Positions 12,706 through 49,135 of a stretch of 64,000 nt of DNA are shown here, in pieces. Below the pieces are notes generated by a model, which made no database searches, was not told the origin of the DNA, and was given only the letters and a program-made list of their open reading frames with translations. Made by a program: the position numbers and the translations under genes. Origin of the DNA: a virus; the IMG/VR virus record IMGVR_UViG_3300025405_000011, positions 62,001 through 126,000 of that record; one strand, 5' to 3'. Each line of letters begins with the position of its first letter. Positions within the stretch are counted from its first letter, which is position 1.

Positions 12706-13197
12706 CTACTTAGTGGGTGGTGTGTGACTCGAATTTGCATTAATTGCATTAGTATTAAAACGTAGATAAGTTTGTGGTTTTCGTCCATCTTGATTAACAT
12801 GGCAGTAGCTGGGGTCACCCTGCTGACCCATTGAAATAGTCAAGGGATTAGAAGCATTAGCACCAGTTACATCTACAATTAGAGCAGTATGCCAACCGGT
12901 ACCGGGTCCGTAGACAATTACATCTCCGGGTTGTACGTCTTTAAGAGCAATCTTTTGCCCATGAGCAAGAAGTGTACCAGTATAGCCCGTGTGATTGTAG
13001 CTTTGACCGTTAGGGTCAGGAGCTCCAGCCCAGTTGTAGCAAAGAGTTACAAAGGCCGAGCAATCGGAGACAACTGGTAGTTTACCAGCATGTCCAATTC
13101 CAGACATACGCTGAGGACCTTCTGAATAAGTAAATTTTGCATGATTAGTAGCAGCCCACTTGGCCCAAGCTACAATAACAGAACGAACATCTGACAT
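12706..13197 (-). CDS. NlpC/P60-like peptidoglycan hydrolase
   Basis: The 163-residue protein has the NlpC/P60 arrangement: catalytic Cys46 in VSDCSAFVTL, QPGDVIVY at 89-96 and catalytic His103 in GWHTALIVDV. A third polar residue is likely further on. Family members cleave bonds in peptidoglycan stem peptides. The gene sits among fibre and tail genes and not with the holin-like genes, so it may be a tail-associated enzyme that opens the wall during entry. It has no signal peptide. A cell-lysis role is the alternative. Confidence 0.8.
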   Translation of the reverse strand: MSDVRSVIVAWAKWAATNHAKFTYSEGPQRMSGIGHAGKLPVVSDCSAFVTLCYNWAGAPDPNGQSYNHTGYTGTLLAHGQKIALKDVQPGDVIVYGPGTGWHTALIVDVTGANASNPLTISMGQQGDPSYCHVNQDGRKPQTYLRFNTNAINANSSHTPPTK

Positions 13198-13255: not shown

Positions 13256-16200
13256 TTAACTAGTAGGTTCTGTGTGACTATTAGAATTTCCATTACCAGA
13301 AGAGTAGTTACCGGTAGTGTTATTGGGTTGTTGTTCAGCATAGTCAGCGACTCTGTTTTGGGTAAAGGTATTGACATCTGTATTTTCAACTAGTCTAACA
13401 TTCATTAGTCTCTTGACATTAAATCGTATTAGACTAGTGGCAGTGGCAATAGCTTGTCTAATTGCAGTTCTACGTCTACTAGTGCCAATCTGATAACTAA
13501 CTGTTACACTAGCACCACGATATTTACCCTTAGCCTTGGTAACAGTAGCACTAACCACTTGTGCTGCTTGAGCAGTCTTGTGTTTACCCTTACCTCTAAA
13601 GGCACGACCCAAGAATACAGCTACAGGACGAACACTCCAGTAAATTCCACGGGTAAAAGCTCCAAGCATTACTACTGGAATTCTAACTGTAGTTCTTAAT
13701 GCTTTATTGGAACGCACTAGAGAGAATGAAGTAGAAAATACAAGCTTGAGTCTATTAAAGATCTTGCTATTGGTTACTAGAGCCATAGAGTTTGCAATAG
13801 CGGTCTTGGGTCTATTTATAGTCTTAGTTCCAAAGGCAATATTGATTAGATTTATTACCGAGCTTCTAAAACTATTGACTATCTTAAGTGAACGACCCAC
13901 ATTAACTCCTAATGCACGAGCCAAACGCAGATGAGTGGCTGTTCTAGATACCGTAGCTAGACCAAAGAAACGAGCTGTAGCCCATCGATAGAGTGCAGTA
14001 ATAGGGCCCTGTACACTAGACTGTATTACTAGTGCACTAGCTCTACGGAAACTGACTACAGTTCTACTAGCTATGGCTCTATTTACTACACTTGCACTAG
14101 ATCTACGAATTGCTCTTACTAGTCGAGTATTACTGGTCAATTGTATTCCAGTGGCAATTGAATGTCTAAGCTTACGAGCAAAGTTAGTGGTCTGTACTAT
14201 AGAGAACGATACTACTGTACTGTTTCTAAACTTAACAGCATACTTGACTGTAGTTATTGCAAGTGAACTAGTAGCAATAGAGTATCTAAGTTTATTGGCT
14301 TTTTTAGTTGTAGAAATTAACTCTACAAAAGTGGCTCGAGCGTATCTATAGAGTCTGGTAAATGGAATTTCATAACCAGCAAGCAGTGTTTGTTGAGCAA
14401 CTGAACTTCGTATCTTAGTTGCAAATTTATTACTAGATACTAAACCAAATACTCTAGCCTGGGCATATTTAAAGAAACGTCCAATGGGATTGTCACTAGC
14501 TAACGATACTACCGTAGCAATAGCATAACGTAATTTATTGGCAGTCTTGTTATTGTTGGCCAAGTTGACTAGTGTAGCTCGAGCATAACGAAATAGACGA
14601 GCAAAAGGAATCTCTGGACTAGCAAGTAGTAGTGTTGTTACTCTACTGTAGCGAACTTTTTGAGCAAATTTATTGTTAAGTACTAGATTGAATAATGAAA
14701 CTATAGAGTGTTTAAGTTTATTGGCAATCTTGATGTTACTGGACAGAGATATAAAAGTAATTCGAGCGTAACGAAGCAATCTATCAAATCTAAAATCCCC
14801 AGCTCTCTGTACCACAGTAGCTATAGCATAACGTAGTTTACGAGCGGTATTAGTAGAAGTAACTAGACTAACTAAGCTGGCTTGAGCAAATCTAAATAGA
14901 CGAGTAAATGGTATTTCAGGACTGGCCAACCAAATTTGTAAGACTGTACTGTATCTAAGTTTTCGAGCAGTATTGGTAGTGGCTATAGAATTGATAATAT
15001 TGACTACTGAGTGTCTAAACTTGTTTGCTGTTTTATTCAAAGAGGCCAATGGAGTAAGAGCGGCTGTTCCTATTCGCAAGAATACTCCACGTTTACTGAC
15101 ACTAACTAGAGCAAATGCTCGAGCGGTAGCCCATCGGTATAGAGCAGTAATAGGGCCCTGTCGAGTGAGTGAGATTACAGTAGCTAGTGCTCTACGTAAG
15201 TATACACCAGTACGAGTTACTTGTACGGTATTAATAACTGTACCTATACCCCTACGAACATACCGTCCAACTCTACTGGTCACTACAAAGCTAGTAGCAA
15301 TAGCAGTTGCTCTACGAACTTTGTTGGCTACTCTAGAACTACTAACTAACTGTATAGTAGAAGCAATAGCATAAGTAAAGAAGTGCCCAACTCTTACACA
15401 TCTAGTAAGAGATATTTGTACTACTGCACTAGATCGAATCTTTCGAGCAAACTTAGAACTAGCTATAGTTGTAATAGATAGTGCACTAGAGAATCTAAAG
15501 CTAACAGTTCTACGAGTAGTAGAAGCAAGATATATAGCAGTTACTCTAGCACGACGAAGCAAACGGGTAAACGGTATTTCAGGACTAGCCAAAAATACTT
15601 GTATGATATTACTGTAGCGAAGTTTTTGAGCAAACTTATTATTACTTGTTAGAGATATAAAGGTGGCTCGAGCATATCTAAATAGTTTTGTAAACGGTAT
15701 TTCTGGACTAGCTAGCAATGTCTGTATTACTATACTAGAACGAATTTTTTGTGCATATTTATTATTGTTTACTAGACCAATTGCTAGTGCACGAGCATAA
15801 CGGAATAATCTATCAAATGGTTTTTCTGGAGAAACAAGCCAAACTTGTACTATATTGCTATAGCGTAGTTTATTAGCATACTTACTGTTAGTACTTAAAA
15901 CAATGAAAGTTGCTCTAGCACGACGAAACAGTCTAGTAAATGGCACTTCAGGACTAGCAAGCCAAGTTTGAATTACTGTACCGTAACGAAGTTTTTGAGC
16001 ATAGTTGTTAGTAACTATAGAGTTAATATAGTTTACTACTGAGTATCTAAGCTTGTAAGCAAAATTGGTTGAAGCTACTGATAGTATATTGGTAATCGTA
16101 GAAAAACGAGAGTGAGTAGCAGTACGAGTAGTTGTTACTAGAGCAAATACTCGAGCGGTAGCACGTCGATAGAGTGCAGTAATAGGACCTTGTCGAGTGA

Positions 16201-18568
16201 GATTGACTACAGTAGACAATGCTCTACGAATATGAGTGGCTGTTCTTGTAGAAGAGACAAGACCAATAGTAGTAGCAATACTTCTACGAACATTTCTAGA
16301 CAGTTTACTATTACTAGCGAGATTTATAGCATTAGCAAGAGCATAACGCATCTTGGCTTTAATATTAAATATCTGAACTAGTGGTACTTGTACTACTGTA
16401 CTATATCTAAGTTTACGAGCATATTTGATATTGTTTATGACTGGAGTAAGTAGTGCTAGAGCAAAACGGAAGAAATGATCTAGCTTAAATTCTCCAGCTC
16501 TCTGTACAGTTGTAACTAGTGCATTACGAACTTTATTGGCTGTTCTACTGTTATTGGCTAGAGATACAAAGGTAGCTCGAGCAAAACGAAGCAATCGAGC
16601 GAATGGAATTTCTGGACTAGCCAATAGTGTTTGAGCTACTGTACTGTATCTAAATTTAACAGCACGATTGGTAGTTTTAATTAAACTCACTGCCAATGCA
16701 ATTGCATATTTAATATAGTGCTCTATACCGTTTGATGTACGAATCATAGAGATGTTTATTGAACGAGAATATCTAAGTAACCGAGTGTATCTCTGTACTG
16801 TAATAGAAGCAATAGTGCTGACTAGAGAACTACGAACAAATACTCCACGCTTACTAGTAGAGACTAATGCAAATGCTCTTGCAGTAGCTCTTCTAAAGAA
16901 TTGACCAATTGGTCCCTCAACAGTAAGACTAACAGTAACTGCTATGGCCCTACGCAAGAGAGTGGTAATACGAGTACTAGAAACTAATGAAATCATAGTA
17001 GAGACAGACTCTCTAAAATGTATGGTTCTCCTAGTGCTATTGACTAGTTGTACAGCAGTAGCAAGAGCATAACGTAGCTTAGTTCTAGTACTAGATATCT
17101 GTATTAGTGATGTTTGTATTACTGTACTGTATCTAAGTTTTCGAGCGAACTTATTGTTACTCGTTAGAGATGTAAAAGTGGCTTGAGCATAACGAAATAG
17201 TCTAGTAAATGGAATTTCTGGGCTGGCAAGTGATGTTTGTATTACGGTACTAAAACGAATCTTTCGAGTAAACTTAGAACTATTAGCTAACTGAATAAAG
17301 GTAGCTCGAGCAAATCTAAACAATCGAGCAAATGGTACTTCAGGACTGGCCAGTAATATTTGTGTTACACTACTATACCTAAGCTTACGTGTATACTTAC
17401 TAGCAACAATTAGAGATATAAAAGTAGCTCGAGCAAATCTAAATAGACGAGTGAAAGGAATCTCTGGACTAGCAAGAAATACTTGTACTATATTTGAGCT
17501 TCGTATTTTAGTTGCAAATTTATTATTATTAGACAAATTAATTAATACAACTCGAGCATAACGAAACAATCGAGCAAACGGGACTTCAGGAGCAGCAAGT
17601 GATACTTGTACTGCATTTGAATTTCGTAATTTATGTGCAAATTTACTAGTGGTTACTAGTCCAAATATTCTAGTAGTAGCATATTTAAAGAAATGTCCAA
17701 CTGGACTATCACTAGCTGACTGTATTGTAGTGACTAGTGAATATCTCAGTTTATTGGCAGACTTAGTATTGTTAGTTAGACTAATTAATGTAGCTCGAGC
17801 GTAACGAAATAATCTTGCAAAAGGAATCTCAGGTGCAGCAAGAGATGTCTGTACAGCTCTAGCAATTCGAAACAGTACAGTTCTTCTAGTAAGAGAAACT
17901 AGAGAAGTTAACTGTACACTAGCATATTTAAAGAAACGTCCAACGGGACTGTCTAGTGCCCTATTGACAACGGTGACAGTGGCGTATCTAGGTTTGTAGG
18001 CTCGTTTAGAAACAGCAACCGTAAAGATACTAATGGCTCTAGAGGTTCGTGTAAACACTCCTCTACGGGTTGTAGAAACTAATGCAAATGTTCGAGCGGT
18101 AACACGTTTAAATAGCTCGTCAATACGACCCTGTCGTATCAATGATACAGATGCTACCGTAGAGTGACGTATCTTGTCTGCAACAAATCTTGCAGCAATA
18201 GCCGAGACTTGTACAGCTACAGCAAGTTTGAATCTAATATTGTATTTTTGTACAGAAATATAGTTGGTCGAAAGAGCTCTACTGCTCTTGTTTCTGGTAA
18301 AAGTTCTATTGTTCTCTACAAATAGTGTAGCTAGTGCTATAGAATTTTTTAGATAGTGTATAAATGGCGATAATGGCCATTGACCTTTTCTATAGCCCAA
18401 CTCGTAGGCATTGGTATTGGGGCTATAGTAGGCTCTAGTAAAAGAGTGTGGACGACTATTGTACGGTGGGTAAACTGGACTAGCACCACCACGGTAACCT
18501 TCAATAACATTGGCAGAGGGAGAGTGATAGCCCTTCTGAATATTATTCTTGGGAACTTTAACGGCCAT
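13256..18568 (-). CDS. Giant basic tandem-repeat protein, unknown (candidate fibre)
   Basis: The 1770-residue protein consists of roughly 80 tandem repeats of about 20-21 residues from residue 90 to 1700. The loose consensus is (F/L)R(Y/R/F)(A/S)xAxxxxLxxxxxxxxK. Two spacer types recur: TSNNKFARK and SPEIPFTRL. Arg, Lys, Tyr, Ser and Val dominate and acidic residues are rare, so the protein is strongly basic. No signal peptide or enzyme motif is seen. The C-terminus is Asn/Ser/Gly-rich. Its place between the NlpC/P60-like gene and other fibre genes suggests a virion component, perhaps a solenoid. I do not recognise this family. Confidence 0.7.
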   Translation of the reverse strand: MAVKVPKNNIQKGYHSPSANVIEGYRGGASPVYPPYNSRPHSFTRAYYSPNTNAYELGYRKGQWPLSPFIHYLKNSIALATLFVENNRTFTRNKSSRALSTNYISVQKYNIRFKLAVAVQVSAIAARFVADKIRHSTVASVSLIRQGRIDELFKRVTARTFALVSTTRRGVFTRTSRAISIFTVAVSKRAYKPRYATVTVVNRALDSPVGRFFKYASVQLTSLVSLTRRTVLFRIARAVQTSLAAPEIPFARLFRYARATLISLTNNTKSANKLRYSLVTTIQSASDSPVGHFFKYATTRIFGLVTTSKFAHKLRNSNAVQVSLAAPEVPFARLFRYARVVLINLSNNNKFATKIRSSNIVQVFLASPEIPFTRLFRFARATFISLIVASKYTRKLRYSSVTQILLASPEVPFARLFRFARATFIQLANSSKFTRKIRFSTVIQTSLASPEIPFTRLFRYAQATFTSLTSNNKFARKLRYSTVIQTSLIQISSTRTKLRYALATAVQLVNSTRRTIHFRESVSTMISLVSSTRITTLLRRAIAVTVSLTVEGPIGQFFRRATARAFALVSTSKRGVFVRSSLVSTIASITVQRYTRLLRYSRSINISMIRTSNGIEHYIKYAIALAVSLIKTTNRAVKFRYSTVAQTLLASPEIPFARLLRFARATFVSLANNSRTANKVRNALVTTVQRAGEFKLDHFFRFALALLTPVINNIKYARKLRYSTVVQVPLVQIFNIKAKMRYALANAINLASNSKLSRNVRRSIATTIGLVSSTRTATHIRRALSTVVNLTRQGPITALYRRATARVFALVTTTRTATHSRFSTITNILSVASTNFAYKLRYSVVNYINSIVTNNYAQKLRYGTVIQTWLASPEVPFTRLFRRARATFIVLSTNSKYANKLRYSNIVQVWLVSPEKPFDRLFRYARALAIGLVNNNKYAQKIRSSIVIQTLLASPEIPFTKLFRYARATFISLTSNNKFAQKLRYSNIIQVFLASPEIPFTRLLRRARVTAIYLASTTRRTVSFRFSSALSITTIASSKFARKIRSSAVVQISLTRCVRVGHFFTYAIASTIQLVSSSRVANKVRRATAIATSFVVTSRVGRYVRRGIGTVINTVQVTRTGVYLRRALATVISLTRQGPITALYRWATARAFALVSVSKRGVFLRIGTAALTPLASLNKTANKFRHSVVNIINSIATTNTARKLRYSTVLQIWLASPEIPFTRLFRFAQASLVSLVTSTNTARKLRYAIATVVQRAGDFRFDRLLRYARITFISLSSNIKIANKLKHSIVSLFNLVLNNKFAQKVRYSRVTTLLLASPEIPFARLFRYARATLVNLANNNKTANKLRYAIATVVSLASDNPIGRFFKYAQARVFGLVSSNKFATKIRSSVAQQTLLAGYEIPFTRLYRYARATFVELISTTKKANKLRYSIATSSLAITTVKYAVKFRNSTVVSFSIVQTTNFARKLRHSIATGIQLTSNTRLVRAIRRSSASVVNRAIASRTVVSFRRASALVIQSSVQGPITALYRWATARFFGLATVSRTATHLRLARALGVNVGRSLKIVNSFRSSVINLINIAFGTKTINRPKTAIANSMALVTNSKIFNRLKLVFSTSFSLVRSNKALRTTVRIPVVMLGAFTRGIYWSVRPVAVFLGRAFRGKGKHKTAQAAQVVSATVTKAKGKYRGASVTVSYQIGTSRRRTAIRQAIATATSLIRFNVKRLMNVRLVENTDVNTFTQNRVADYAEQQPNNTTGNYSSGNGNSNSHTEPTS

Positions 18569-18580
18569 TGTTTACTTTCA

Positions 18581-18943
18581 CTAGACTTCTAAGGCCGACC
18601 ACTTTCCCAGTGGACAAAAAGCCTCAGCTAATTTAACTTTTGCAGTCATAATACAACCACATTCTTTGCATTGCATAAGTTTCTTACGAAGTCGAGGACA
18701 GTCCTTACAGATGTCTAGTCGTTGTTCTTGTATCTCTTCTGGGACTCGTTCTTTGTTAGGATTAAGTAAGTCCCAAGGACGAACCTGTCTTGGTTTTTCT
18801 TGTTCCTGCTCTTCTAATAAAGCATAAAAAGGTTCTGGGCTTTTTGTAGATATGGGTATTTCTTTAACTTCATTGTGTATTTCTAGAAATTTTCTTTCTT
18901 TTTCTAGATATAGATCCCAAGGTCTTGGACTCTGATCAGACAT
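18581..18943 (-). CDS. Small zinc-ribbon protein with CPLGKW C-terminus
   Basis: I chose the ATG at 18943, two bases after the upstream stop; an upstream in-frame TTG would add 20 residues. The 120-residue product has an acidic, Trp-Asp-Leu-containing N-terminal half (RPWDLYLEKE, RPWDLLNPNKE). Its C-terminal zinc-binding region has the pattern CKDCPRL - QCKECGCIM - FCPLGKW. This C-terminal pattern is widespread in phage structural regions, where its function is unknown. The paired PWDL motifs may be docking sites. Confidence 0.7.
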   Translation of the reverse strand: MSDQSPRPWDLYLEKERKFLEIHNEVKEIPISTKSPEPFYALLEEQEQEKPRQVRPWDLLNPNKERVPEEIQEQRLDICKDCPRLRKKLMQCKECGCIMTAKVKLAEAFCPLGKWSALEV

Positions 18944-18945
18944 TT

Positions 18946-19170
18946 CTAGCCTATCGTGTCGTTTACTGGAGCTTGAAAACCTGAGTCTTTGGAGTAAGTC
19001 CAACCGATACTTATTTCTCCCACTAGTGCTGGTTCAACAGCAACAATAACTGGGTTACTGGTTAGTAATGCAGCAAAACGCTCTTGCGTAGTCATTACTT
19101 CTTGAACTTGTCCGTCTATAACAAAGGCAACGGTTTCAGTCATACTGGGTACTGCTGGATTATCAGACAT
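18946..19170 (-). CDS. Small phage protein, unknown
   Basis: The 74-residue protein has an AFVIDGQVQEVMTTQERFAALLTSNP region followed by VEPALVGEISIGWTYSKDSGFQAP. The IGWTYxxxxFxAP ending recurs in small proteins next to tail-fibre genes in many phages. It is preceded by a good ribosome binding site (AGGAGAC). Its position between the Cys-rich fibre-like gene and the zinc-ribbon gene suggests a tail-fibre accessory or assembly function. Confidence 0.65.
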   Translation of the reverse strand: MSDNPAVPSMTETVAFVIDGQVQEVMTTQERFAALLTSNPVIVAVEPALVGEISIGWTYSKDSGFQAPVNDTIG

Positions 19171-19204: not shown

Positions 19205-20698
19205 TTATTGACCCGTAAAGGTTCCAATTGTTGTACCCTGAGTAAGTCCACCGGGAGTTAGTGCAACGCCTACTCCTGCAGTTGCGGCAGAGGGTATACC
19301 AGTAGTAGCAGTATAGCTAGTGGTACCCAGGCTGGCTGTTAACGCTGTATCGGTATATGGAGTCACTACAATTACTCCAGTGGTGGCATTGGTGGTAACA
19401 CTCAAAGAGTTAATGTAGGGAGTACTACTGGTATTGGTCCAGCTGGTACTCCATACACTAGTGATGGTATTTGCTACTGATCTCCATAGATTAACTGGCC
19501 ATACATAGTAGGTTGTAGTGTATCCAGCTGTACAACCATAGGCAGTGCAACCGTTGGCAGTGCAACCGTTATTGTTGGCAGTACAACCGTTAGTACAGCA
19601 ACCACTAGTAGTACAACCGTAACCGGCACAGTTACTGCCATTATAGGCATTGCAGCAACCGTTACCACAACTACCATAGGTGGGGTTAGAAGCATTGTAC
19701 CCAGTACAACCAGTACCAGTACAGCCATAACCAGCACATTCATAACCACCACAGGTAAAGGTCGTACAGATAGTATTGTAGCCAGTCTGACAACCGCTAC
19801 CACAAGAACCATAGATGGCATTACTGGCATTATAGGCATTGCAGCAACCGTTACCACAACTGCCATAGTTAGCATTACCACCAGTTTTGGTCTTGGCATT
19901 GTAAGCATTGTATCCAGTAACACAACCGGTACCACAACTACCACTGGTCTTGCAGTTACTGGCATTGTAGCCATTGAGACAACCGTTACCACAACTACCA
20001 TAGGTTGCATTACCCTGACCATAAGCATTGCAGTAATAAGTCTGACAAACAATAACGGCACAACCGGTACTAGTACAACCATTAGTAGCACAAGTGGCAG
20101 CATTGTAGCCAGTCTGACAACCGTTGCCACAACTACCACTGGTCTTGCAGTTACTGACATTATAACTGGTACAGCCAGTAGCACAGCAACCGGAACTAGT
20201 ACAACCGTAGGTGGCACAACCGGTTACTCCATAGGCAGTGCAGCCGTTGGCGGTACAACCATTAGCAGTGCAGGTATAGGTATTGTAAGTGGAGCTAGGT
20301 CCAGTGGACAGTACATAGAAATCACCAGAGCTGGTTTGCCAAAAAGCAACTCCAGCACCCTGACTGACACTCTGTGCACTAATTGTAGCACTGGTTTTAA
20401 AGGGAGTTGTAGCCAGTGGAAAACTGGTATTGGACACTGTACTTGAACTAGTGGCCACTCCACTATTACTGTACCAAATTCCAATGATATTGCTCCAGGT
20501 ATTGCCGGTATTACTGGTGCCTAGACTACCGCTTGTAACTCGAGCCCAAGTGTCAAGGATGTTGCTTTGATACCAAGTTTTCCAGGCTCCACCAATATTG
20601 ATAAAGCTCTGTGTAATCGAGTGCCAAGTTCCGCCAATATTTACTGACATTCCATTGGTAGAGTGCCAGTTTCCGCCTACGTTAAGATTTCCTGCCAT
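19205..20698 (-). CDS. Cysteine-rich repeat adhesin-like protein
   Basis: The 497-residue protein has three regions. The N-terminus contains three repeats of the form NxGGxWHS (residues 5-40), as found in fibre anchoring segments. Residues about 140-405 contain about 42 cysteines in short repeats such as GCTAN, YGSCGNGC and TGYNASN. A beta-rich C-terminal domain follows. There is no Lys/Arg-rich region or enzyme motif. Regular Cys spacing could form disulphides once the particle is outside the cell, or bind metal. The neighbouring genes are all fibre-like. I do not recognise the Cys-rich domain. Confidence 0.75.
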   Translation of the reverse strand: MAGNLNVGGNWHSTNGMSVNIGGTWHSITQSFINIGGAWKTWYQSNILDTWARVTSGSLGTSNTGNTWSNIIGIWYSNSGVATSSSTVSNTSFPLATTPFKTSATISAQSVSQGAGVAFWQTSSGDFYVLSTGPSSTYNTYTCTANGCTANGCTAYGVTGCATYGCTSSGCCATGCTSYNVSNCKTSGSCGNGCQTGYNAATCATNGCTSTGCAVIVCQTYYCNAYGQGNATYGSCGNGCLNGYNASNCKTSGSCGTGCVTGYNAYNAKTKTGGNANYGSCGNGCCNAYNASNAIYGSCGSGCQTGYNTICTTFTCGGYECAGYGCTGTGCTGYNASNPTYGSCGNGCCNAYNGSNCAGYGCTTSGCCTNGCTANNNGCTANGCTAYGCTAGYTTTYYVWPVNLWRSVANTITSVWSTSWTNTSSTPYINSLSVTTNATTGVIVVTPYTDTALTASLGTTSYTATTGIPSAATAGVGVALTPGGLTQGTTIGTFTGQ

Positions 20699-21063: not shown

Positions 21064-24000
21064 TTAAGTTAGCTTCATGTGTAGATTATATTGCATTGCA
21101 GTGGCACCACTACTTGCATATGCTACAGAGTAAGAGATGTTGGTTCCACTCTTGGCATAGAATTGGAAACTTCCGTAGACTGCACTAGAAGTGGTATTTG
21201 CACTAGTGGAGTCATCGGTGAGAGTTATTGTAGTTCCATCGGGGTCAGTAAAGATTACACTCACGGGACCTAGGGTACTAGACGTAGTTGCAGCAGTAGT
21301 GACCTTACCATAAAAGTTTAGATTGTACAGTTGAGCAGTCGGAGTAGAGTATATGAGAGTGGTACCAATAGCGGCACTTTGTGTAGTCAAGTCTACTAGT
21401 CCATAGTATTCTATGTCATTGACTGGAGCCCACTGAGTTCCATTGTAGGTTAGTACACTGCCACTTGCTGGAGCAGTATTGCTTATGGCAACACCTTGAA
21501 TTTTGGCTACAGTTGGGTTTGGAAGTGTACCCGTTAGATCTCCACCAACACTGGCACTAAGTGTACCGGTAACAGTTAGACCACTAGCAGCAACCACTAG
21601 GCCGGCACTAGTAATGGTCATAGAATCATTGGAGCTATTATTGTTTACAAAGTGTATAGAGTTGGCAGTATAGGTACCCAGTGTAACATCACCATTGGCA
21701 GCACCCACATAGACGGCATTGGGGATATTGAACCCACCGGTACCGGCATAGTTACTGGAGTTCATTCCAAACTCACCATAGTAACTGCTTGCAGTTGCTA
21801 GATTATTACTGACATTAAAGTTAGTACTACTAGTGGTTCCCGAGTTGGTATTTTGCATAACCATCTGGTTGTAATTACCAACATTACTGGAGAACCCGGC
21901 CATAATATTTACATCAGAATAGTTAAGAGAGCCATTGTTAATTGGTGGAGTATTGGTACCACTACTTGCACTAACTGTATAGGGAACACTTAGAATACCG
22001 GTTACAGTTACGTTACCGGTTACGGTTACACTGCTATTAGAGTAGAGTGGACCAGTGAGACTTCCACCGGCAAGAGGTAGTTTGGTAGAGTCCAGTGGAG
22101 CACTTGTAGTTACTCCTGTCACTCGACCCTTACTGTCAGTTGTAATAACTGGTACTAGAGTAGCACTACCGTAGGTACCGGCAGTTCCAACTCCACTGAG
22201 TGTTGGGTTCGGATAGCTACCGGTAAGGTCACCACCGGCTGTACCATTGGGTGGTAGAGCCGTAGGAATTTGACCAAAGGCTGCAGCATCTGAGGCAGCT
22301 GAGCCATTTGCAAGTCCTGTAATCTTGTTACTACCCATTGCAATAGCACCAGACATGGTACCACCGGCTTTAGGTAGAGCAGCAGCAGCAACTCCACTAA
22401 CAGTTGCAATATTTGTATTGGCAGTGACCATCTGCCCGCTAAGTGTGGCTATGTTACTGTTTGCAGTGACCATTTGGCCACTTAGAGTGGCAATATTGCT
22501 CTCGTCTGTAATTTGTTTGCCACTAATGGTCGAGACATTGCTATTGGTGGTCACTATACTGCCACTATTGGTGGCAATATTGTTATTTGCAGTGATCATT
22601 TGACCACTTAATGTTGCAATATTGCTATTAGCAGTCACCATTTGACCACTGAGAGTGGCTATATTTGTTTCGTCTATAACTTGCTTGCCAGAGATGGTGT
22701 TTACAACACCACTGGTAGTGGCATATTGACCCGAGAGAGTTGCATATTGTCCACTAAGACTGGCTAGGTTACTGTTGGTAGTATTGAGACTACCACTAAG
22801 TGTAACTAGATTGCCACTTAATGTTGCAATATTGTTTTCGTCTGTAACTTGCTTACCGGAGATGGTGTTTACAACACCACTAGTGGTGACATATTGTCCA
22901 CTAAGGGTTACAAGTGACCCACTGGTAGATGCAATGTTTGCATTGGCAGTGACCATTTGACCCGATAGGGTAGCAATATTACTTGTATTAGTGGTTACAA
23001 TTCCTGAGGTGGTAACATATTGACCACTGAGTGTTGCAAGATTGCTATTGGTTGTAGTGATTGAACCACTCAATGCTGACAAGTTTCCAGAAAGACCAGT
23101 TACTTGACTTTGGTTAATTTGTACACCAGTTACAGTTACAGTCGAACGACCATAGGTATCTGTTGTAATTACTGGAATACCACTAGTAGTACCGTATGTA
23201 CCAGGAGTACCGTAGGTTTGTAGTTCAATATCTGTTTGACCAGGAGCAACCAAGTAATTAACAGCAAGTGAGTTACTAGTCAATGGTTGGATAGCAGTAT
23301 CCCATGAAAGAGTAGTTGTAGCTACACCTTCCCAATAACTAGTTGGTGGTAACCAAATGGGTGCTCCGGTTGAACCATTGTCAATGTATGCTGTTGGTTG
23401 TGGGTAAACAAGAAGCCAACTAGTTAGATCTTCGTTGTGAATTTGCATCCATTGACCGTTATATGTTGGCGTAGGAAGAATAACTCCTGTACCAGATGCT
23501 GTGTTACCTGAAGCAGTAGCACCAGTTACTGGGGCATATGTGCTAAGAGTAAGTGGAGTCGCAGTAGCAGCATTAGTACCACTAGCAGCAACTGCATTGA
23601 CTGTGTATGTACCCGTTTGGTTGTACATAATTTGAGAAACAGATACAAATACTCCAGGAGCAGTTGGGTAGTTGGCACCAGAGGCAATAGTTTTAATAGT
23701 AGTGTCAGTGTTGGTTGGCATCCACATGATTTGGAAGTTGTCATTACCACTTGCAGTAATTATATGTGTTACAGCAGCAGTTACAGCACTTCCAGCAGGA
23801 CCATTTGGTACTGCAAATGTTGCATTGGTATTTGGAACATTAACACCATTTTTACGGAACCAAATATCTACGTTTCTAGAAGCATTGGAAGAAGTAAATA
23901 ATTGAACTGTATAGGCAACCAAGTAAGTACCAGTATAACCAAATGTAATTGTTCCACTAGCCGATCTAGTTATACCATTGGCAGTAAATGTACTACCAAT

Positions 24001-27000
24001 TGCTACAACATTTCCACTTGTAGTGCTTGTAGCAGTTTGAGTGGTAGTAGTGTCATAGAAGGCACCATAGTAACCATTAGCTCCACCAGGACCAGGTGTT
24101 CCTACTCCACTTGATGTAATAGGAGTCCATACTCCACCGACTGATGCAAGAACTTGACCAGTGTTTGGAGGGGTAGAGCTTACAGGTGTACCATTGAGAT
24201 AAGAAACTGTTGGGTTAGGATAAGTTCCGGTAAGATCTCCACCAGCAGTGTCACCAAAGTTATTGCTACTAATTAACCATTCTGTTCTAACAGAATCATA
24301 ATAGAATTCTACTGAGTTAAATACTCCGTTACCAGCTAGAACAAAACTGCCATCACCTGCAATATTGTCACTACCACTTGCAACAATAGTAACATCATAG
24401 GTACTTGTAGTTTGACTGGCAACTGCAATGACTGAACCATTGGCAGGAGCATTGGTTAGAGTGACTGTCATTGCACCAGCAGTTGCATTACATACTACAT
24501 AGTCATTGGGAACTGCTGTATAGTTACCACTCTTGGTGGTAGTTGGGAATAGAGCATTACCCGTACCAGCATACCAAGTGCCAGATGTAGTACTGTAACG
24601 TAGAACTTGGTTATTGGTTGGAGCTGTTGGACTTATGGAAATACCCTGGATTTTAGCTACAGTTGGGCCTGGGTAAGTACCCGAAAGATCACCAGTAGCA
24701 TTCGTACCAGAGAAGATTGTTCTTCCACTAGTAGTTGCAAATTGACCACTCAAACTTACAATATTGCCCGAGTTGGTTGCTATGTTACTGTTTGCAGTGA
24801 CCATTTGGCCACTGAGTGTAGCTATATTGATTGTATTAGTTGCAGCAACTCCACTAACAGTAGAGATGTTTGCTTCATCTGTCACTTGCTTACCTGATAT
24901 GGTATTTACAACACCACTAGTAGTTGCATACTGCCCACTAAGAGTAGTAAAGTTGCCACTAATGGTTGCAATATTGGCTTCGTCTGTAACTTGATTACCA
25001 GAGATGGTAGCAATATATCCAGACTGGTCTGTAACAAGGCCTGAAGTAGTAACATATTGGCCACTGAGTGTTGCAAGACTACCTGACAATGATGCAATAT
25101 TGGAAGTATTAGTAACTACTTGACCACTAATGGTTGCAATATTGGCTTCATCAGTGGATACATCACCCTCTAATAAAATAAGGTTTTGATTTGTTGTATA
25201 CCAATAGCCAGAGAGAGTAGAAATGTTGCCAGAGTTGGTTGCAATATTTGTATTTGCAGTAACCATTTGGCCACTTAAAGTGGCAATATTGCTTTCGTCA
25301 GTGATCTGATTGCCACTTATAGTTGCAACATTATTGGTAATTGTAACTACTTGTCCACTAATAGTGGCAATATTTACTTCATCAGTAACTTGCTTGCCAG
25401 AGATGGTGTTTACAACACCACTGGTAGTGGCATATTGACCCGAGAGGGTGACAAAATTACCACTAATAGTGGCTATATTGCTTTCATCGGTCACTTGTTT
25501 GCCACTTATAGTTGCTATGTTGGCTTCGTCAATCGCTTGTTTGCCACTAATGGTGGCTATGTTACTTGCATCAGTAATCTGTAGTCCACTTAGAGTGGCT
25601 ATATTGCCTTCGTCAGTAACTTGCTTGCCTGAGATAGTTGCTACATAACCACTAAGAGTACTAGTGCCATTTTGTAGTGCAGTAATATTAACTGCATCTG
25701 CAGCTTGTCGTCCACTAAGACTAACAATATTATTATTAGTGATATCGAGACTGCCACTGAGAGTGACTATGTTGCCCGAGTTAGTGGCAATATTACTATT
25801 GGCAGTAACCATTTGACCCGAGAGAGTCGATATGTTGGTCTCGTCAGTTACTTGCTTACCGGAGATGACTCCAATGCTATTGCCTTGATTGGCAACTTGA
25901 CCACTTAAGGTTACAAAGTTACTTTCATCGGTCACTTGCTTACCACTTATAGTTGCAATATTGCTGTTTGCAGTGACCATTTGGCCTGAGAGTGTTGAGA
26001 TATTACTAGAGTTAGTAACTATCTGACCCGAGTTAGTTGCAATATTACTGTTTGCAGTAACCATTTGACCACTAAGTGTGGCTATGTTATCTTCATCCGT
26101 GGCTTGATTACCACTAATGGTGGCTATATTACTATTGGCAGTAACCATTTGGCCACTTAAGGTGGCAATGTTAACTTCATCAGTGATTTGATTATTGACA
26201 ACACCACTTAGAGTACCACTTATAATGACCACTTGTCCACTAAGTGCAGCTATATTGCTTTCATCAATGGATTGATTGCCACTAAGTGTAACAAATTGTC
26301 CACTTAATGTAGTAAAGTTATTGGTAAGTGTAGTGAGATTTCCACTAAGAGTGGCTACTTTAGTATTTGTAGCAATTATTTGACCCGACAGTACTGCTAT
26401 ATTGTCTTCATCAGTGGCTTGATTACCACTAATTGTAGAAACATAGCCACTTAGTACTACAGAATTTTGATTTAAAAGATCAATATTGTCGTTGGCAATG
26501 CCTAAACCAATACCTAGATTAGTTATGGCATCTTCGTCTGTAACTTGCTTGCCAGAGATAGTGGCAATCTGTCCACTCATAGTAGTTTGATTACCACTAA
26601 TTGTTATTAGATTTGTAGTAAGGTTAGTGACTTGACTTTCAGCAATCTCGATCTCATTGACATAGGTGTCAATTACTCGACCTTTATTGTCAAGTGTAAG
26701 AGTTAAAGAGCTAGCATTATTACCGTAAGTGCCACTTGTAGACACTGGAGGTAGTGTTGGATTTGGGTAGCTACCTACTAGATCTCCACCGGCAACACTG
26801 CCACTAATAACGGCATCAGCGGTTATATAGTTAAACTGTGCTTGCTCTATGGCAGTAGAGACTGGAAAGACATTAAAGTTATCAGGAAATCCTGCAGCAT
26901 GTGGTTGAGCAAGTGTACCGTCATAGCCTCGACCATTAGTGCCACTGACATTATAGATATTAATAACAGTATTGAGGCCTAGTGCAATGGCACCACTGGC

Positions 27001-27237
27001 ACAAAGAATTTTTTCTTCTGAACCCAAACCATAGTCAACAACCAGTGTATAGGGTCCACTGGTTCCCAGAGGATTGGTGGTATTATAGCCATAGGGGCTA
27101 ACTTCATACCAACCGGTGGTGTTGGCTACGGTTAATGTTTGGTTAGAAACATAACCACTAGCAACTGTAGCTACAAGATATGTAGGAGCCGCACCACCGG
27201 GGTATGAACGTATTACACTGGAATCAGGAAGGGCCAT
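21064..27237 (-). CDS. Giant tail fibre with 14-residue coiled-coil repeats and C1q-like domain
   Basis: The 2057-residue protein starts with a beta-rich anchoring domain (residues 1-175). Two long arrays of a 14-residue repeat follow (about 180-870 and 1380-1620), with units such as NIATLSGQMVTANS and NIATISGKQVTDEA. Hydrophobic residues recur at 3-4 spacing, giving a probable trimeric coiled coil. GGDLTGTYPNPTV elements recur as domain linkers (near 870, 1000, 1670 and 1900). Residues about 1045-1215 look like a C1q/TNF-like beta-sandwich (GTYLVAYTVQLF, GNDNFQIMWMP). A beta-rich tip ends the protein. It is the likely long host-binding fibre. Confidence 0.85.
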   Translation of the reverse strand: MALPDSSVIRSYPGGAAPTYLVATVASGYVSNQTLTVANTTGWYEVSPYGYNTTNPLGTSGPYTLVVDYGLGSEEKILCASGAIALGLNTVINIYNVSGTNGRGYDGTLAQPHAAGFPDNFNVFPVSTAIEQAQFNYITADAVISGSVAGGDLVGSYPNPTLPPVSTSGTYGNNASSLTLTLDNKGRVIDTYVNEIEIAESQVTNLTTNLITISGNQTTMSGQIATISGKQVTDEDAITNLGIGLGIANDNIDLLNQNSVVLSGYVSTISGNQATDEDNIAVLSGQIIATNTKVATLSGNLTTLTNNFTTLSGQFVTLSGNQSIDESNIAALSGQVVIISGTLSGVVNNQITDEVNIATLSGQMVTANSNIATISGNQATDEDNIATLSGQMVTANSNIATNSGQIVTNSSNISTLSGQMVTANSNIATISGKQVTDESNFVTLSGQVANQGNSIGVISGKQVTDETNISTLSGQMVTANSNIATNSGNIVTLSGSLDITNNNIVSLSGRQAADAVNITALQNGTSTLSGYVATISGKQVTDEGNIATLSGLQITDASNIATISGKQAIDEANIATISGKQVTDESNIATISGNFVTLSGQYATTSGVVNTISGKQVTDEVNIATISGQVVTITNNVATISGNQITDESNIATLSGQMVTANTNIATNSGNISTLSGYWYTTNQNLILLEGDVSTDEANIATISGQVVTNTSNIASLSGSLATLSGQYVTTSGLVTDQSGYIATISGNQVTDEANIATISGNFTTLSGQYATTSGVVNTISGKQVTDEANISTVSGVAATNTINIATLSGQMVTANSNIATNSGNIVSLSGQFATTSGRTIFSGTNATGDLSGTYPGPTVAKIQGISISPTAPTNNQVLRYSTTSGTWYAGTGNALFPTTTKSGNYTAVPNDYVVCNATAGAMTVTLTNAPANGSVIAVASQTTSTYDVTIVASGSDNIAGDGSFVLAGNGVFNSVEFYYDSVRTEWLISSNNFGDTAGGDLTGTYPNPTVSYLNGTPVSSTPPNTGQVLASVGGVWTPITSSGVGTPGPGGANGYYGAFYDTTTTQTATSTTSGNVVAIGSTFTANGITRSASGTITFGYTGTYLVAYTVQLFTSSNASRNVDIWFRKNGVNVPNTNATFAVPNGPAGSAVTAAVTHIITASGNDNFQIMWMPTNTDTTIKTIASGANYPTAPGVFVSVSQIMYNQTGTYTVNAVAASGTNAATATPLTLSTYAPVTGATASGNTASGTGVILPTPTYNGQWMQIHNEDLTSWLLVYPQPTAYIDNGSTGAPIWLPPTSYWEGVATTTLSWDTAIQPLTSNSLAVNYLVAPGQTDIELQTYGTPGTYGTTSGIPVITTDTYGRSTVTVTGVQINQSQVTGLSGNLSALSGSITTTNSNLATLSGQYVTTSGIVTTNTSNIATLSGQMVTANANIASTSGSLVTLSGQYVTTSGVVNTISGKQVTDENNIATLSGNLVTLSGSLNTTNSNLASLSGQYATLSGQYATTSGVVNTISGKQVIDETNIATLSGQMVTANSNIATLSGQMITANNNIATNSGSIVTTNSNVSTISGKQITDESNIATLSGQMVTANSNIATLSGQMVTANTNIATVSGVAAAALPKAGGTMSGAIAMGSNKITGLANGSAASDAAAFGQIPTALPPNGTAGGDLTGSYPNPTLSGVGTAGTYGSATLVPVITTDSKGRVTGVTTSAPLDSTKLPLAGGSLTGPLYSNSSVTVTGNVTVTGILSVPYTVSASSGTNTPPINNGSLNYSDVNIMAGFSSNVGNYNQMVMQNTNSGTTSSTNFNVSNNLATASSYYGEFGMNSSNYAGTGGFNIPNAVYVGAANGDVTLGTYTANSIHFVNNNSSNDSMTITSAGLVVAASGLTVTGTLSASVGGDLTGTLPNPTVAKIQGVAISNTAPASGSVLTYNGTQWAPVNDIEYYGLVDLTTQSAAIGTTLIYSTPTAQLYNLNFYGKVTTAATTSSTLGPVSVIFTDPDGTTITLTDDSTSANTTSSAVYGSFQFYAKSGTNISYSVAYASSGATAMQYNLHMKLT

Positions 27238-46359: not shown

Positions 46360-46391
46360 ATTACTAAATTGACACTATTAGAGTTTTACAG

Positions 46392-46462
46392 TTCCGGGGC
46401 TAGGGCTCGAACCTAGAATGACAGATTCAAAGTCTGTAGTGTTGCCATTACACTACCCCGGA
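46392..46462 (-). tRNA. tRNA-Gln (anticodon UUG)
   Basis: The 71-base cloverleaf reads on the minus strand. The acceptor stem is TCCGGGG paired with CCCCGGA, discriminator A. The anticodon loop is CTTTGAA in a five-base stem (ACAGA/TCTGT), so the anticodon is UUG. The T-arm is CTAGG-TTCGAGC-CCTAG. CCA is not encoded. It serves CAA codons. Confidence 0.9.
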
Positions 46463-46467
46463 TTGCC

Positions 46468-47226
46468 CTAACGATAACTTTTTTTCTTCCAGATGTTTTT
46501 ACGGTACCAACCGTCTAGTAGTTCATCTAATTTAGGTGAAGATGAACTCCACGTCTCTGATCTACTTTCATGCCACATACTGGGATTTTGTTTAAGTTTC
46601 CACTCTTCACGTCTAAAAGGTATAACTTGAGCGATTGGAGTTCCAGCTGGAATAGTCCCTTCAAAGTCTTTTCTAAGGTAAAAACTGGCATTTGCTCCAG
46701 GCATGGCATAGTCATCCACTACTCCAGTAAGAGTATAGAAAGGTAACTCAAATCGATTAAACGGATGAGTTATAATCATACTATAACCGTCTGGGGGTCT
46801 AATACTTACATGTAGGAACCAATGAAAATGTTCAAATTCATCTCCATATCCTGCAGGACCCACCATGGGGTTGGTAACATGTGGTGGCCTAGCTTCTAGT
46901 GGGCGGCCTAGTTCATCTTCTAGTTTTTTGTCCCATTCAACAACTATACGTCCATCTACTCTCTTAAAAGTTACATCTTGATCTAGTAATATATAATACC
47001 CTAAACCAAGAGCATCAAGGAAGGGCATACAGTGCTTAAGACCCGGCCACTCAGGCATTCCATAATTTAAATCTTCTGGTATTTCTACCCAACGCTTGGT
47101 TTGTTTATACCAGTCAGGAGTCATAGTTACTGCTGGGCGTACTATTTTACTATACCCACTACTCGAGTCATATTCTAGAATAGTTTTGGGTACAGTTAGT
47201 TTTTGTTGTTTCTTCTTTTTAAACAT
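46468..47226 (-). CDS. Uncharacterised phage protein, first of two paralogues (possibly DUF6065-like)
   Basis: The 252-residue protein has a basic start (MFKKKKQQKLTVPKT). It shows a pattern shared with the next upstream gene: a TPDWYKxxxRWV motif, KxCMPFLDALGLGYYI, a GYSMIITHPFNRFELPFYTLTGVVD core and a C-terminal IPxGTPIAQVIPFRREEW. This core resembles, from memory, an uncharacterised family common in cyanophage and environmental phages (DUF6065-type). That name is unverified. It ends with W-K-K-K-S-Y-R. Beta-rich with one helix. The function is unknown. Confidence 0.6.
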   Translation of the reverse strand: MFKKKKQQKLTVPKTILEYDSSSGYSKIVRPAVTMTPDWYKQTKRWVEIPEDLNYGMPEWPGLKHCMPFLDALGLGYYILLDQDVTFKRVDGRIVVEWDKKLEDELGRPLEARPPHVTNPMVGPAGYGDEFEHFHWFLHVSIRPPDGYSMIITHPFNRFELPFYTLTGVVDDYAMPGANASFYLRKDFEGTIPAGTPIAQVIPFRREEWKLKQNPSMWHESRSETWSSSSPKLDELLDGWYRKNIWKKKSYR

Positions 47227-47909
47227 TATTTATAGCTCTTTTTCTTCCAACCAAGTCTACGATACCAGTCATGTGGCCCTTTTCTTTCATGATCTCTAGC
47301 TTCTCGTACTAGATTCTTGTCTTCTTTACTGACCCATTCTTCTCTCTTAAAAGGTATCACTTGAATAATTGGAGTACCTTTGGGTATTAACCCTTCAAAC
47401 CCTTGCTTTAGATACCAGGGCACATTACCCCCAGGTATAGCAGCATCACCATCAATAATTGCACTTAGAGTATAGAATGGTAAATCAGTTCTATTTAAAG
47501 GGTGTGTATAGAGTGCACTATAGCCATCGGGAAGTTTAATTGCTGCTCCATAAATCCAAGTAAAATGATAATCCTCATAGCCAGTAGGAGTAGGCATAGG
47601 GTCAGTCTGTAGACTGCTTCTAGCACCTATTCTACCGCTCTTAAATCTTATAATGGGCTCATTGTCTTCGTTTCTTTCAACTAGTATATCGGTCCATAGA
47701 TTGATAGTATAGCCAGTTGTTAGTGAATCAAGAAAGGGTACACATGCTTTTACTGATAACTGTTCTTCATGTTCTCCAGAAATTATGACCTTACGAGGTA
47801 TTTTTCTATACCAGTCTGGGGTATTTTTAACTGCAGGAGTAAACTCATCTGGAAAATGTTCACTGTGATAGAATACTATTTGTTTAGTGTTAGTTTCTTT
47901 TTTTGACAT
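47226..47909 (-). CDS. Uncharacterised phage protein, second paralogue
   Basis: The 227-residue protein is a clear relative of the downstream gene: TPDWYRKIPRKV, KACVPFLDSLTTGYTI, GYSALYTHPLNRTDLPFYTLSAIID and a final IPKGTPIIQVIPFKREEW and WKKKSYK. Its start is separated from the preceding kinase-like gene by one base, and its stop overlaps the paralogue's start. The shared YSxxxTHPxNRxxLPFYTLxxxxD signature suggests a common fold. The pair arose by duplication. No catalytic site can be named. Confidence 0.6.
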   Translation of the reverse strand: MSKKETNTKQIVFYHSEHFPDEFTPAVKNTPDWYRKIPRKVIISGEHEEQLSVKACVPFLDSLTTGYTINLWTDILVERNEDNEPIIRFKSGRIGARSSLQTDPMPTPTGYEDYHFTWIYGAAIKLPDGYSALYTHPLNRTDLPFYTLSAIIDGDAAIPGGNVPWYLKQGFEGLIPKGTPIIQVIPFKREEWVSKEDKNLVREARDHERKGPHDWYRRLGWKKKSYK

Positions 47910-47910
47910 A

Positions 47911-48327
47911 CTAACCTAACTCTCTCATAACTAGTTCTACTTCTTCATCTATAGTTAGCCCATCTTTAATGTGAACATTAACCATATTAGAAGGGTCTTG
48001 CCACATTAAGTTGGTATCTTCATATCTACCGGCCTTGATGCGATCTACCCATACTACTAGATCAGATTCTCCAAATGCTCTTCTAGTGTCTTCAGTAGGG
48101 CAAATAAAATCTACTACTACATAGTAGTCTTGTTCTTTTAATAAACGAGCCATTCCACCCAAACGACGAGAATGTTCAATTCGATCTTCATGAGAGAAAC
48201 CTAAATCATAATTGACAAAATCTCTTACCTGATCGGCATTAAGATGTATTGCTTTGATCTGCTCTGCTAGTGCTTGTGCAAGAGATGTCTTACCGGCTCC
48301 GGGCAGTCCAATAATTTGAATAATCAT
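47911..48327 (-). CDS. APS-kinase-like P-loop kinase
   Basis: I chose the ATG at 48327, which has AAAGGAG upstream and lies clear of the tRNA-Asn gene. The 138-residue product has the P-loop GLPGAGKTS (residues 7-15), HLNADQVRD (28-36) and a Walker-B-like VVVDFICPTEDTRRAF. This resembles the adenylylsulfate kinase (CysC) fold, although the full APS-binding set cannot be confirmed by eye. It could phosphorylate a nucleotide or a small hydroxyl substrate. The neighbours give no pathway clue. Confidence 0.65.
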   Translation of the reverse strand: MIIQIIGLPGAGKTSLAQALAEQIKAIHLNADQVRDFVNYDLGFSHEDRIEHSRRLGGMARLLKEQDYYVVVDFICPTEDTRRAFGESDLVVWVDRIKAGRYEDTNLMWQDPSNMVNVHIKDGLTIDEEVELVMRELG

Positions 48328-48344
48328 ATTGCTCCTTTTGACAG

Positions 48345-48416
48345 CTCCCTGGGATGGATTCGAACCACCGACCAAGTCATTAACAGTGACCCGCTCTGCC
48401 GCTGAGCTACCAGGGA
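48345..48416 (-). tRNA. tRNA-Asn (anticodon GUU)
   Basis: The 72-base cloverleaf reads on the minus strand: acceptor TCCCTGG/CCAGGGA with discriminator G, D-arm GCTC/GAGC, anticodon loop CTGTTAA (GUU) and T-arm GGTGG-TTCGAAT-CCATC. It lies between the kinase-like gene and the secreted protein gene. CCA is not encoded. Confidence 0.9.
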
Positions 48417-48426
48417 ATAAAACTAT

Positions 48427-49038
48427 TTATGAATTTGAAAGAATTTGAGCCACAATTGGGTTGGGTATACCCTTGGGAGCTTCTGTCCAAGTTCTAGTGC
48501 CAAACTTAATTGGTTTGTTGTTAATATTCTCCATCATAGGACCTTTACAGATTGCAACTCTAAACTTAGTTCCATCGGTTGCAGTTAATGTTCTGGGCTC
48601 TACTACACAAGGAAAAGACCATTGATTACTACTTCCACCACCAGGTGTTATAGTGTTTTTAAAGTTACGGTGTACCGGGGTCATATTGACCCAACTGCCA
48701 TCGGTTTGCTTGATGGGGAAAGTACTAGGCACTCCAAACAATGACCATACTGTTGCAAATGTTCCGTCTGGAGTTAGTTTACTATTAGTAAGATCTAGAT
48801 TAGCAAATGAAGCACCCGTAGTGATAATTGGGCACTCAGAAAGTCCTAGTCGATACCTAACACCATTAATAATAATGTGTTGATTAAGAGGTTTAGTGCC
48901 ACTAGCAGCACAAAGTGCATAAGGTAGATCATTATACTGCTTTAGTTTAATACCTGTACTTTTTGTAGAGATACCGACTGTAAATACTCCTACAGCAATA
49001 AGTATAACCGTAGCTATAGCAATTATTCTTTTTGACAT
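48427..49038 (-). CDS. Secreted or membrane-anchored protein, unknown
   Basis: I chose the ATG at 49038, because the 16-residue upstream extension overlaps tRNA-Asp. The 203-residue product starts MSKRIIAIATVILIAVGVFTVGIS, a signal peptide or membrane anchor. The rest is extracellular-like with Cys residues at about 39, 60, 152 and 166 that could form disulphides. The region GIKLKQYNDLPYALCAASG reads as a folded domain. No enzyme motif is recognised. It may act at the host envelope, for example in superinfection exclusion, but that is speculation. Confidence 0.6.
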   Translation of the reverse strand: MSKRIIAIATVILIAVGVFTVGISTKSTGIKLKQYNDLPYALCAASGTKPLNQHIIINGVRYRLGLSECPIITTGASFANLDLTNSKLTPDGTFATVWSLFGVPSTFPIKQTDGSWVNMTPVHRNFKNTITPGGGSSNQWSFPCVVEPRTLTATDGTKFRVAICKGPMMENINNKPIKFGTRTWTEAPKGIPNPIVAQILSNS

Positions 49039-49061
49039 ATTGATTTCTTTCTTTAAAGTGG

Positions 49062-49135
49062 CGACCTTGATGGGACTTGAACCCACGACATCCAGCTTGA
49101 CAAGCTGGCGCTCTAACCAACTGAGCTACAAGGCC
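49062..49135 (-). tRNA. tRNA-Asp (anticodon GUC)
   Basis: The 74-base cloverleaf reads on the minus strand: acceptor GGCCTTG/CAAGGTC with discriminator G, anticodon loop TTGTCAA (GUC) in the stem CCAGC/GCTGG, and T-arm GTGGG-TTCAAGT-CCCAT. It is the first tRNA of a short, gene-interspersed tRNA cluster. CCA is not encoded. Confidence 0.9.

Follow-up and report, generated by a model that had tools for sequence, protein, structure and literature searches.

By sequence comparison, one locus in a set of related phages behaves like an accordion, encoding products that range from an acidic protein of 87 residues to a strongly basic protein of 1,770 residues. The repeat family behind this range is undescribed in the sources that we searched, and the series of lengths and charges at a single locus is the chief new result of this work and its most notable one. 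The longest version lies in the window, that is, the whole stretch of 64,000 nucleotides analyzed here, which is part of a virus record of 132,618 bases. The coordinates that the preliminary description had given for the gene were correct; the strand, which it had left out, is minus. The features on which the following argument draws are:

12706..13197, minus strand: NlpC/P60-like (or CHAP-like) wall hydrolase, the next gene downstream (Pfam and PHROG matches)
13256..18568, minus strand: whole gene of the hyperbasic repeat protein, 1770 aa (open frame and translation; 98%-identical copy; dN/dS 0.41)
18353..18568, minus strand: N-terminal segment, residues 1–72 (matches the N-terminus of the array-less orthologue)
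18470..18496, minus strand: YRGGASPVY, residues 25–33, candidate virion-docking motif (counterpart in the 2057-aa fibre)
13751..18352, minus strand: repeat array, residues 73–1606, 74 units of 20–21 residues, net charge +216 (autocorrelation and profile scan)
13469..13750, minus strand: conserved basic C-terminal segment, residues 1607–1700, QVVSATVTK...SVTVSYQIGTS... (common to the long members)
13256..13468, minus strand: non-basic Asn/Ser-rich tail, residues 1701–1770, net charge +1 (tail alignment and charge split)
21064..27237, minus strand: repetitive fibre protein of 2057 aa that also carries this N-terminal motif, Y12–Y20 (sequence, motif scan and weak PHROG hits)

The 1770-aa product has a pI of 11.95 and a net charge of +242, with 15.7% Lys and Arg against 2.0% Asp and Glu. 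It is therefore as basic and acid-poor as had been described, and Ala, Thr and Val, which the earlier account of its composition omitted, are abundant besides Arg, Lys, Tyr and Ser. That account also had the protein consisting almost entirely of about 80 tandem repeats of 20 residues. The repeat is genuine, as self-similarity at lag 20 confirms (+0.20 versus −0.64 on average in shuffled sequences, sd 0.04), and additional peaks appear at lags 40/41, 60/61 and 81; in a second test over lags 12–45, the best of 200 shuffles reached −0.46. A profile scan revised the count to 74 units of 20–21 residues, and the first ~72 and last ~160 residues do not belong to the regular array. Nearly all units are spaced 20 residues apart, while 14 of the 74 are followed by a step of 21 residues, in most cases with SPEIPFTR as the insert; these steps generate 41-residue pairs. 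The unit has the consensus F/L-R-Y-A/S-x-A/V-T-x-I/V-S/N-L-A/V-S-x-x-K-x-A-x-K/R, in which R2, A/S4, A/V6, I/V9, L11, A/V12, K/R16 and K/R20 are the most conserved positions. It is strongly patterned, with hydrophobic residues at positions 1, 6, 9, 11 and 12, and carries about three positive charges.

The preliminary description had allowed that the protein might have no homologue; relatives were found in IMG/VR. Directly before the NlpC/P60-like gene, related phages encode family members of 87, 109, 462, 577, 739, 932, 1043 and 1770 aa. The other long members have pI values of 10.5–11.4 and net charges of +65 (462 aa), +67 (577 aa), +105 (739 aa), +105 (932 aa) and +132 (1043 aa). The dominant repeat period of the long members is 20, except for a period of 18 in the 1043-aa member, and some steps of 38 residues (20 + 18) occur within 20-residue arrays. 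Cousins that lack a long version have a protein of 87 or 109 aa in the same place, without an array and acidic (pI 4.1–4.3, net charge −5 to −9), which reads M-L-G-N-RGYYSANAKVYEGYRG, followed by about 20 residues and a tail ending EPxxPxGEDVVPS. Among the phages with a comparable capsid gene, capsid DNA is ~82–100% identical to that of the window, a comparison that leaves out the 462- and 577-aa members, for which the stretch examined contained no capsid gene.

The short and long forms are joined through their ends. Hidden Markov models of the long members' tails matched the short forms at E values of 1e-12 to 1e-19, and a model of their N-termini did so at 2e-4 to 2e-3, in both cases among 9,777 frames. 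A short form aligned with the 739-aa member over 67 C-terminal residues (BLASTP E 6e-14) and shared with it the N-terminal RGYxSxNxKVxEGxxG, while the N-terminus of the 1770-aa protein was identical to that of a short form at 10 of 16 positions. Because the ends are related in short and long members, the chain between them spans from about the length of one unit to 74 units across related phages. The body between these ends can be absent as an array (87–109 aa), replaced by another body (174 aa) or expanded into arrays (462–1770 aa). The 174-aa version (L091:1817-2341, minus strand) keeps the acidic tail but has an unrelated middle of ~100 residues that contains no basic repeats. The 932-aa member has, in place of the N-terminus, ~220 residues that are beta-sandwich-like by eye and have no family match, and the 1043-aa version likewise has a different N-terminus. 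Exchange of the body with retention of the ends is usual for fibre and receptor-binding genes.

Within residues 1–72 of the 1770-aa protein, the motif (K/R)(G/A)Y(Y/H)S-x-N/A-x-x-YE-G/L-Y-R occurs twice (residues 12–27 and 45–60). The sequence YRGGASPVY at residues 25–33 resembles YPGGAAPTY at residues 12–20 of the neighbouring 2057-aa fibre. Among 4,874 distinct frames, the pattern Y.GGA.P.Y, which was picked after inspection of the sequences, was confined to the 1770-aa protein, to the 2057-aa fibre with its relatives and to one further gene of the fibre block, always near the start of the protein. The looser Y.GGA was found mostly close to the N-terminus (within ~30 residues) of numerous fibre-block proteins that otherwise differ, in the form PYSxNSYxGGA. 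The position of the motif is suggestive of a common docking site, while the 932- and 1043-aa members lack it. At the other end, the C-terminal segment of the long members (QVVSATVTK..VTVSYxIGTS) is 42–51% identical to that of the 1770-aa protein over ~57 residues. The tail is acidic in the relatives, ending EP..xGEDVVPS, and only weakly recognizable in the 1770-aa copy (HMM E 0.013).

Purifying selection indicates that this is a working gene. A second IMG/VR contig carries a 98%-identical copy, and between the two 1770-aa-type copies dN/dS was 0.41, with the frame intact over 5.3 kb in both phages; between two copies of the 739-aa relative it was 0.22. The closest pairs of internal 41-residue repeats differed by a dS of ~1 (mostly 0.7–1.4) and a dN of ~0.25 (0.1–0.3), and the repeats are therefore old and maintained at the protein level rather than a product of recent slippage. 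The simple repetitive composition and the lack of a family in libraries could bring to mind a spurious or decaying frame without function, an idea that is hardly credible and that we rejected given both dN/dS values and an internal-repeat dS far above dN.

The repeat gene belongs to the fibre block, with capsid genes to one side and neck/tail genes to the other. It starts 11 bases after the preceding gene, with fibre-type genes, including that of the 2057-aa fibre, on one side and, 58 bases further downstream, the NlpC/P60 gene on the other, in agreement with the surroundings of fibre and wall-hydrolase genes described earlier. The hydrolase matched Pfam NLPC_P60 at E 1e-4, just under the curated cut-off, and a PHROG tail protein with lysin activity at E 4e-4. 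The family gene was followed by the hydrolase gene in all 12 of the 12 family loci tested. Relative to the hydrolase of the window, that of the array carriers with 462-, 577-, 739-, 1043- and 1770-aa proteins was 83–99% identical, that of the 932-aa type 53%, and those of the short types 44–51%. In a capsid tree, the 1770, 739 and 1043 types grouped together and the 932 type fell elsewhere. The linkage of arrays with one hydrolase type may simply reflect shared ancestry; the array may also have originated or moved repeatedly, or recombination may have relocated it.

The window belongs to an uncultivated phage, a cousin of the actinobacterial group Bixzunavirus. By sequence comparison, its major capsid protein is ~64% identical to those of Bixzunavirus (cluster C) mycobacteriophages and 57–65% identical to those of Rhodococcus E3, Gordonia and other actinophages, with few and far weaker matches to other phages. 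Sheath-like, portal-like and fibre-like genes are also present in the window, mostly assigned by eye from sequence. Given that the capsid relatives are actinophages, the host is probably an actinobacterium; the low G+C content of the window (~42%) would suit freshwater actinobacteria of low GC, although this is a guess. The window also contains three phage tRNA genes at 46391–49135 on the minus strand (Gln-TTG, Asn-GTT and Asp-GTC).

The preliminary description knew of no described phage protein with this repeat, and this held in every library searched. Long, short and intermediate members found nothing significant in Pfam or PHROGs, including no significant known fibre, tailspike or carbohydrate-binding domain; phrog_3330 appeared at E 0.0018 with no stretch significant by itself. 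There was no match in the PDB, either by sequence or by repeat profile, and no match came from 50,697 phage records searched by tblastn with the 109-aa member and three of the long ones. Scanning the C-terminal segment against the genome collection yielded no relative, and no description of the repeat was found in the literature available as open-licence papers.

The 20-residue unit has no relative in the libraries searched, and we assign it no fold from low-confidence models. AlphaFold2 predicted an all-beta structure for eight units with eleven alignment rows, with one strand of 13–15 residues per unit (mean pLDDT 50), while the other four models of that run were near pLDDT 30; for the full 577-aa member with five rows it predicted mostly helices (pLDDT 31). 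The two runs disagree, neither is reliable, and no fold is claimed; the solenoid suggested in the preliminary description is neither supported nor contradicted. Indirect hints of beta structure are the high Val/Ile/Thr content and changes of unit length by two residues. A Foldseek search with the pLDDT-50 model gave nothing below E 0.7. Its top but non-significant rows were curli CsgA and FapC amyloid, which also have short tandem repeats of ~20 residues; with E values of 0.77 and 1.2, TM-scores near 0.1 and no sequence match, this likeness is not evidence of kinship. We also considered the right-handed quadrilateral beta-helix of pentapeptide-repeat proteins, suggested by the exact 20-residue period and by positions 4, 6, 9 and 11, which are small or hydrophobic and follow a 2+3 spacing. 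This fold was not adopted, as one of the four core positions, position 16, is Lys/Arg rather than a core residue in most units, so that A(D/N)LXX does not occur on all four faces; 18-residue units also occur in other members, and there was no Pfam match.

At the level of sequence, we could establish the repeat, its charge, purifying selection, orthology at one locus, the range of lengths, the fibre-type N-terminal motif and the linkage to the hydrolase gene. For the function, the preliminary description had offered a whisker, a packaged DNA-binding protein or a host-surface binder. The position in the fibre block, the shared N-terminal motif and the long, short and rebuilt versions in close relatives favour a whisker or surface binder, a reading that is plausible but unproven. 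In our estimate there is about an even chance that the protein is an accessory fibre or adhesin, attached to the virion and adjustable in length, the polycationic repeat of which binds envelope polyanions beside the wall hydrolase. The related terminal segments, which stand nearly alone in the 87–109 aa orthologues, would hold the protein on the particle; between them the 20-residue basic unit has multiplied, here to 74 copies, into a long polycationic array. The targets of this array would be polyanions in the host envelope, for example teichoic-type polymers of the wall or other glycopolymers that are acidic, with no need for a single exact receptor. The virion, if it carries the protein, and the neighbouring wall hydrolase, if the two cooperate, would thereby be kept at the cell surface. 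More tentatively, we propose that the protein represents an appendage of a new class in phages, namely a polycationic tether tuned in length and charge, in which the number of 20- or 18-residue units between related docking ends would vary so that related phages differ in stickiness to acidic envelopes.

In tailed phages, DNA is packed by a motor and a condensing protein is normally not needed, which speaks against a DNA-binding or -condensing virion protein that is packaged with the phage genome or coats it. The net charge of +242 and the three positive charges in each unit would suit such a protein, and large basic repeat proteins that condense viral DNA do exist, as in ascoviruses (PMC6163548). 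However, related phages do without the array, their orthologue being an acidic protein of 87–109 aa, which argues against a function essential for packaging; moreover, the gene has its place among fibre genes, and its product has an N-terminal motif in common with a fibre. The ascovirus protein P64, from an insect virus, has a pI of 12.2 and 14 Arg/Ser repeats and was shown to bind DNA (PMC6163548). P64 and the 1770-aa protein are alike as large basic viral proteins (pI ~12) with a tandem basic repeat, but P64 combines vs2C-ad motifs with a short Arg/Ser repeat (PMC6163548), whereas the unit described here is longer and has a hydrophobic pattern unlike that of protamine-like Arg/Ser repeats. 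Neither feature was recognized in the 1770-aa protein, which had no Pfam match and a repeat that differs by inspection, and we regard the DNA-binding reading as unlikely.

It also seems quite unlikely that the array is an internal protein ejected with the DNA and threaded into the cell, where it would act on membrane, nucleic acid or ribosomes. A highly charged chain of variable length that lacks a recognized binding domain would suit unfolded travel, and the acidic tail could be a sorting signal, yet the gene adjoins fibre genes rather than known inner-head genes and carries the fibre-type N-terminal motif, and no signature of an internal protein was noticed. That same motif, together with the location within the structural block, makes it improbable that the product is a non-virion polycation released at lysis, for example one clumping debris or binding free DNA and cell walls, despite the hydrolase gene next to it.

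Repeat-bearing structural genes are already known in phages. In crAss-like phages, a structural-block protein has tandem BACON-domain repeats that are described as an evolutionary hot spot (PMC6949934). The likeness is that of a structural-block phage protein with tandem repeats; the BACON repeats are recognized globular domains (PMC6949934), whereas the unit of the 1770-aa protein has 20 residues, is strongly basic and belongs to no known family. In contrast to BACON, the units of the 1770-aa family vary in number at a single locus, from no copy in some homologues up to 74. With an acidic protein of 87 aa at one extreme and an extremely basic one of 1,770 aa at the other, these homologues look like a natural series of length and charge. 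Provided that the protein is located on the virion, one could use the series to test directly how much non-specific electrostatic attachment contributes to adsorption, a contribution that is usually difficult to tell apart from specific receptor binding.

Other genes around this locus are also repetitive or variable. The 2057-aa fibre contains many repeats of the type TLSGQMVTANSNIATxSG and differs in length between cousins, its relative in L001 having strong periods of 14 and 28 residues. The window further encodes, at 19205–20698 on the minus strand, a 497-aa protein made largely of Cys-rich short repeats (xxxGC/TAYGCT), disulphide-rich by look and without a Pfam or PHROG match; a shorter protein resembling it, with a period of 8/12, is found at L086:4299-5426. 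For the frame at 18581–19003 (minus strand) the listed TTG start is probably wrong, and the ATG at 18942 would give a small CxxC protein beginning MSDQSPRPWDLYLEKE..., which matched PHROG 13558 at E 1e-16 and DUF6171 just below the cut-off. Immediately upstream of it is another, separate small gene, the product of which begins MSDNPAVPSM. Between the fibre block and the 739-aa relative, L086:5443-10902 (plus strand) holds a cassette, absent from the window at the corresponding place, that encodes an adenylylsulphate kinase (E 7e-18), a sulfotransferase (E 6e-5), an Asp/Asn beta-hydroxylase (E 1e-12) and a 2OG-Fe(II) oxygenase (E 3e-17), and it might modify structural proteins or host glycans.
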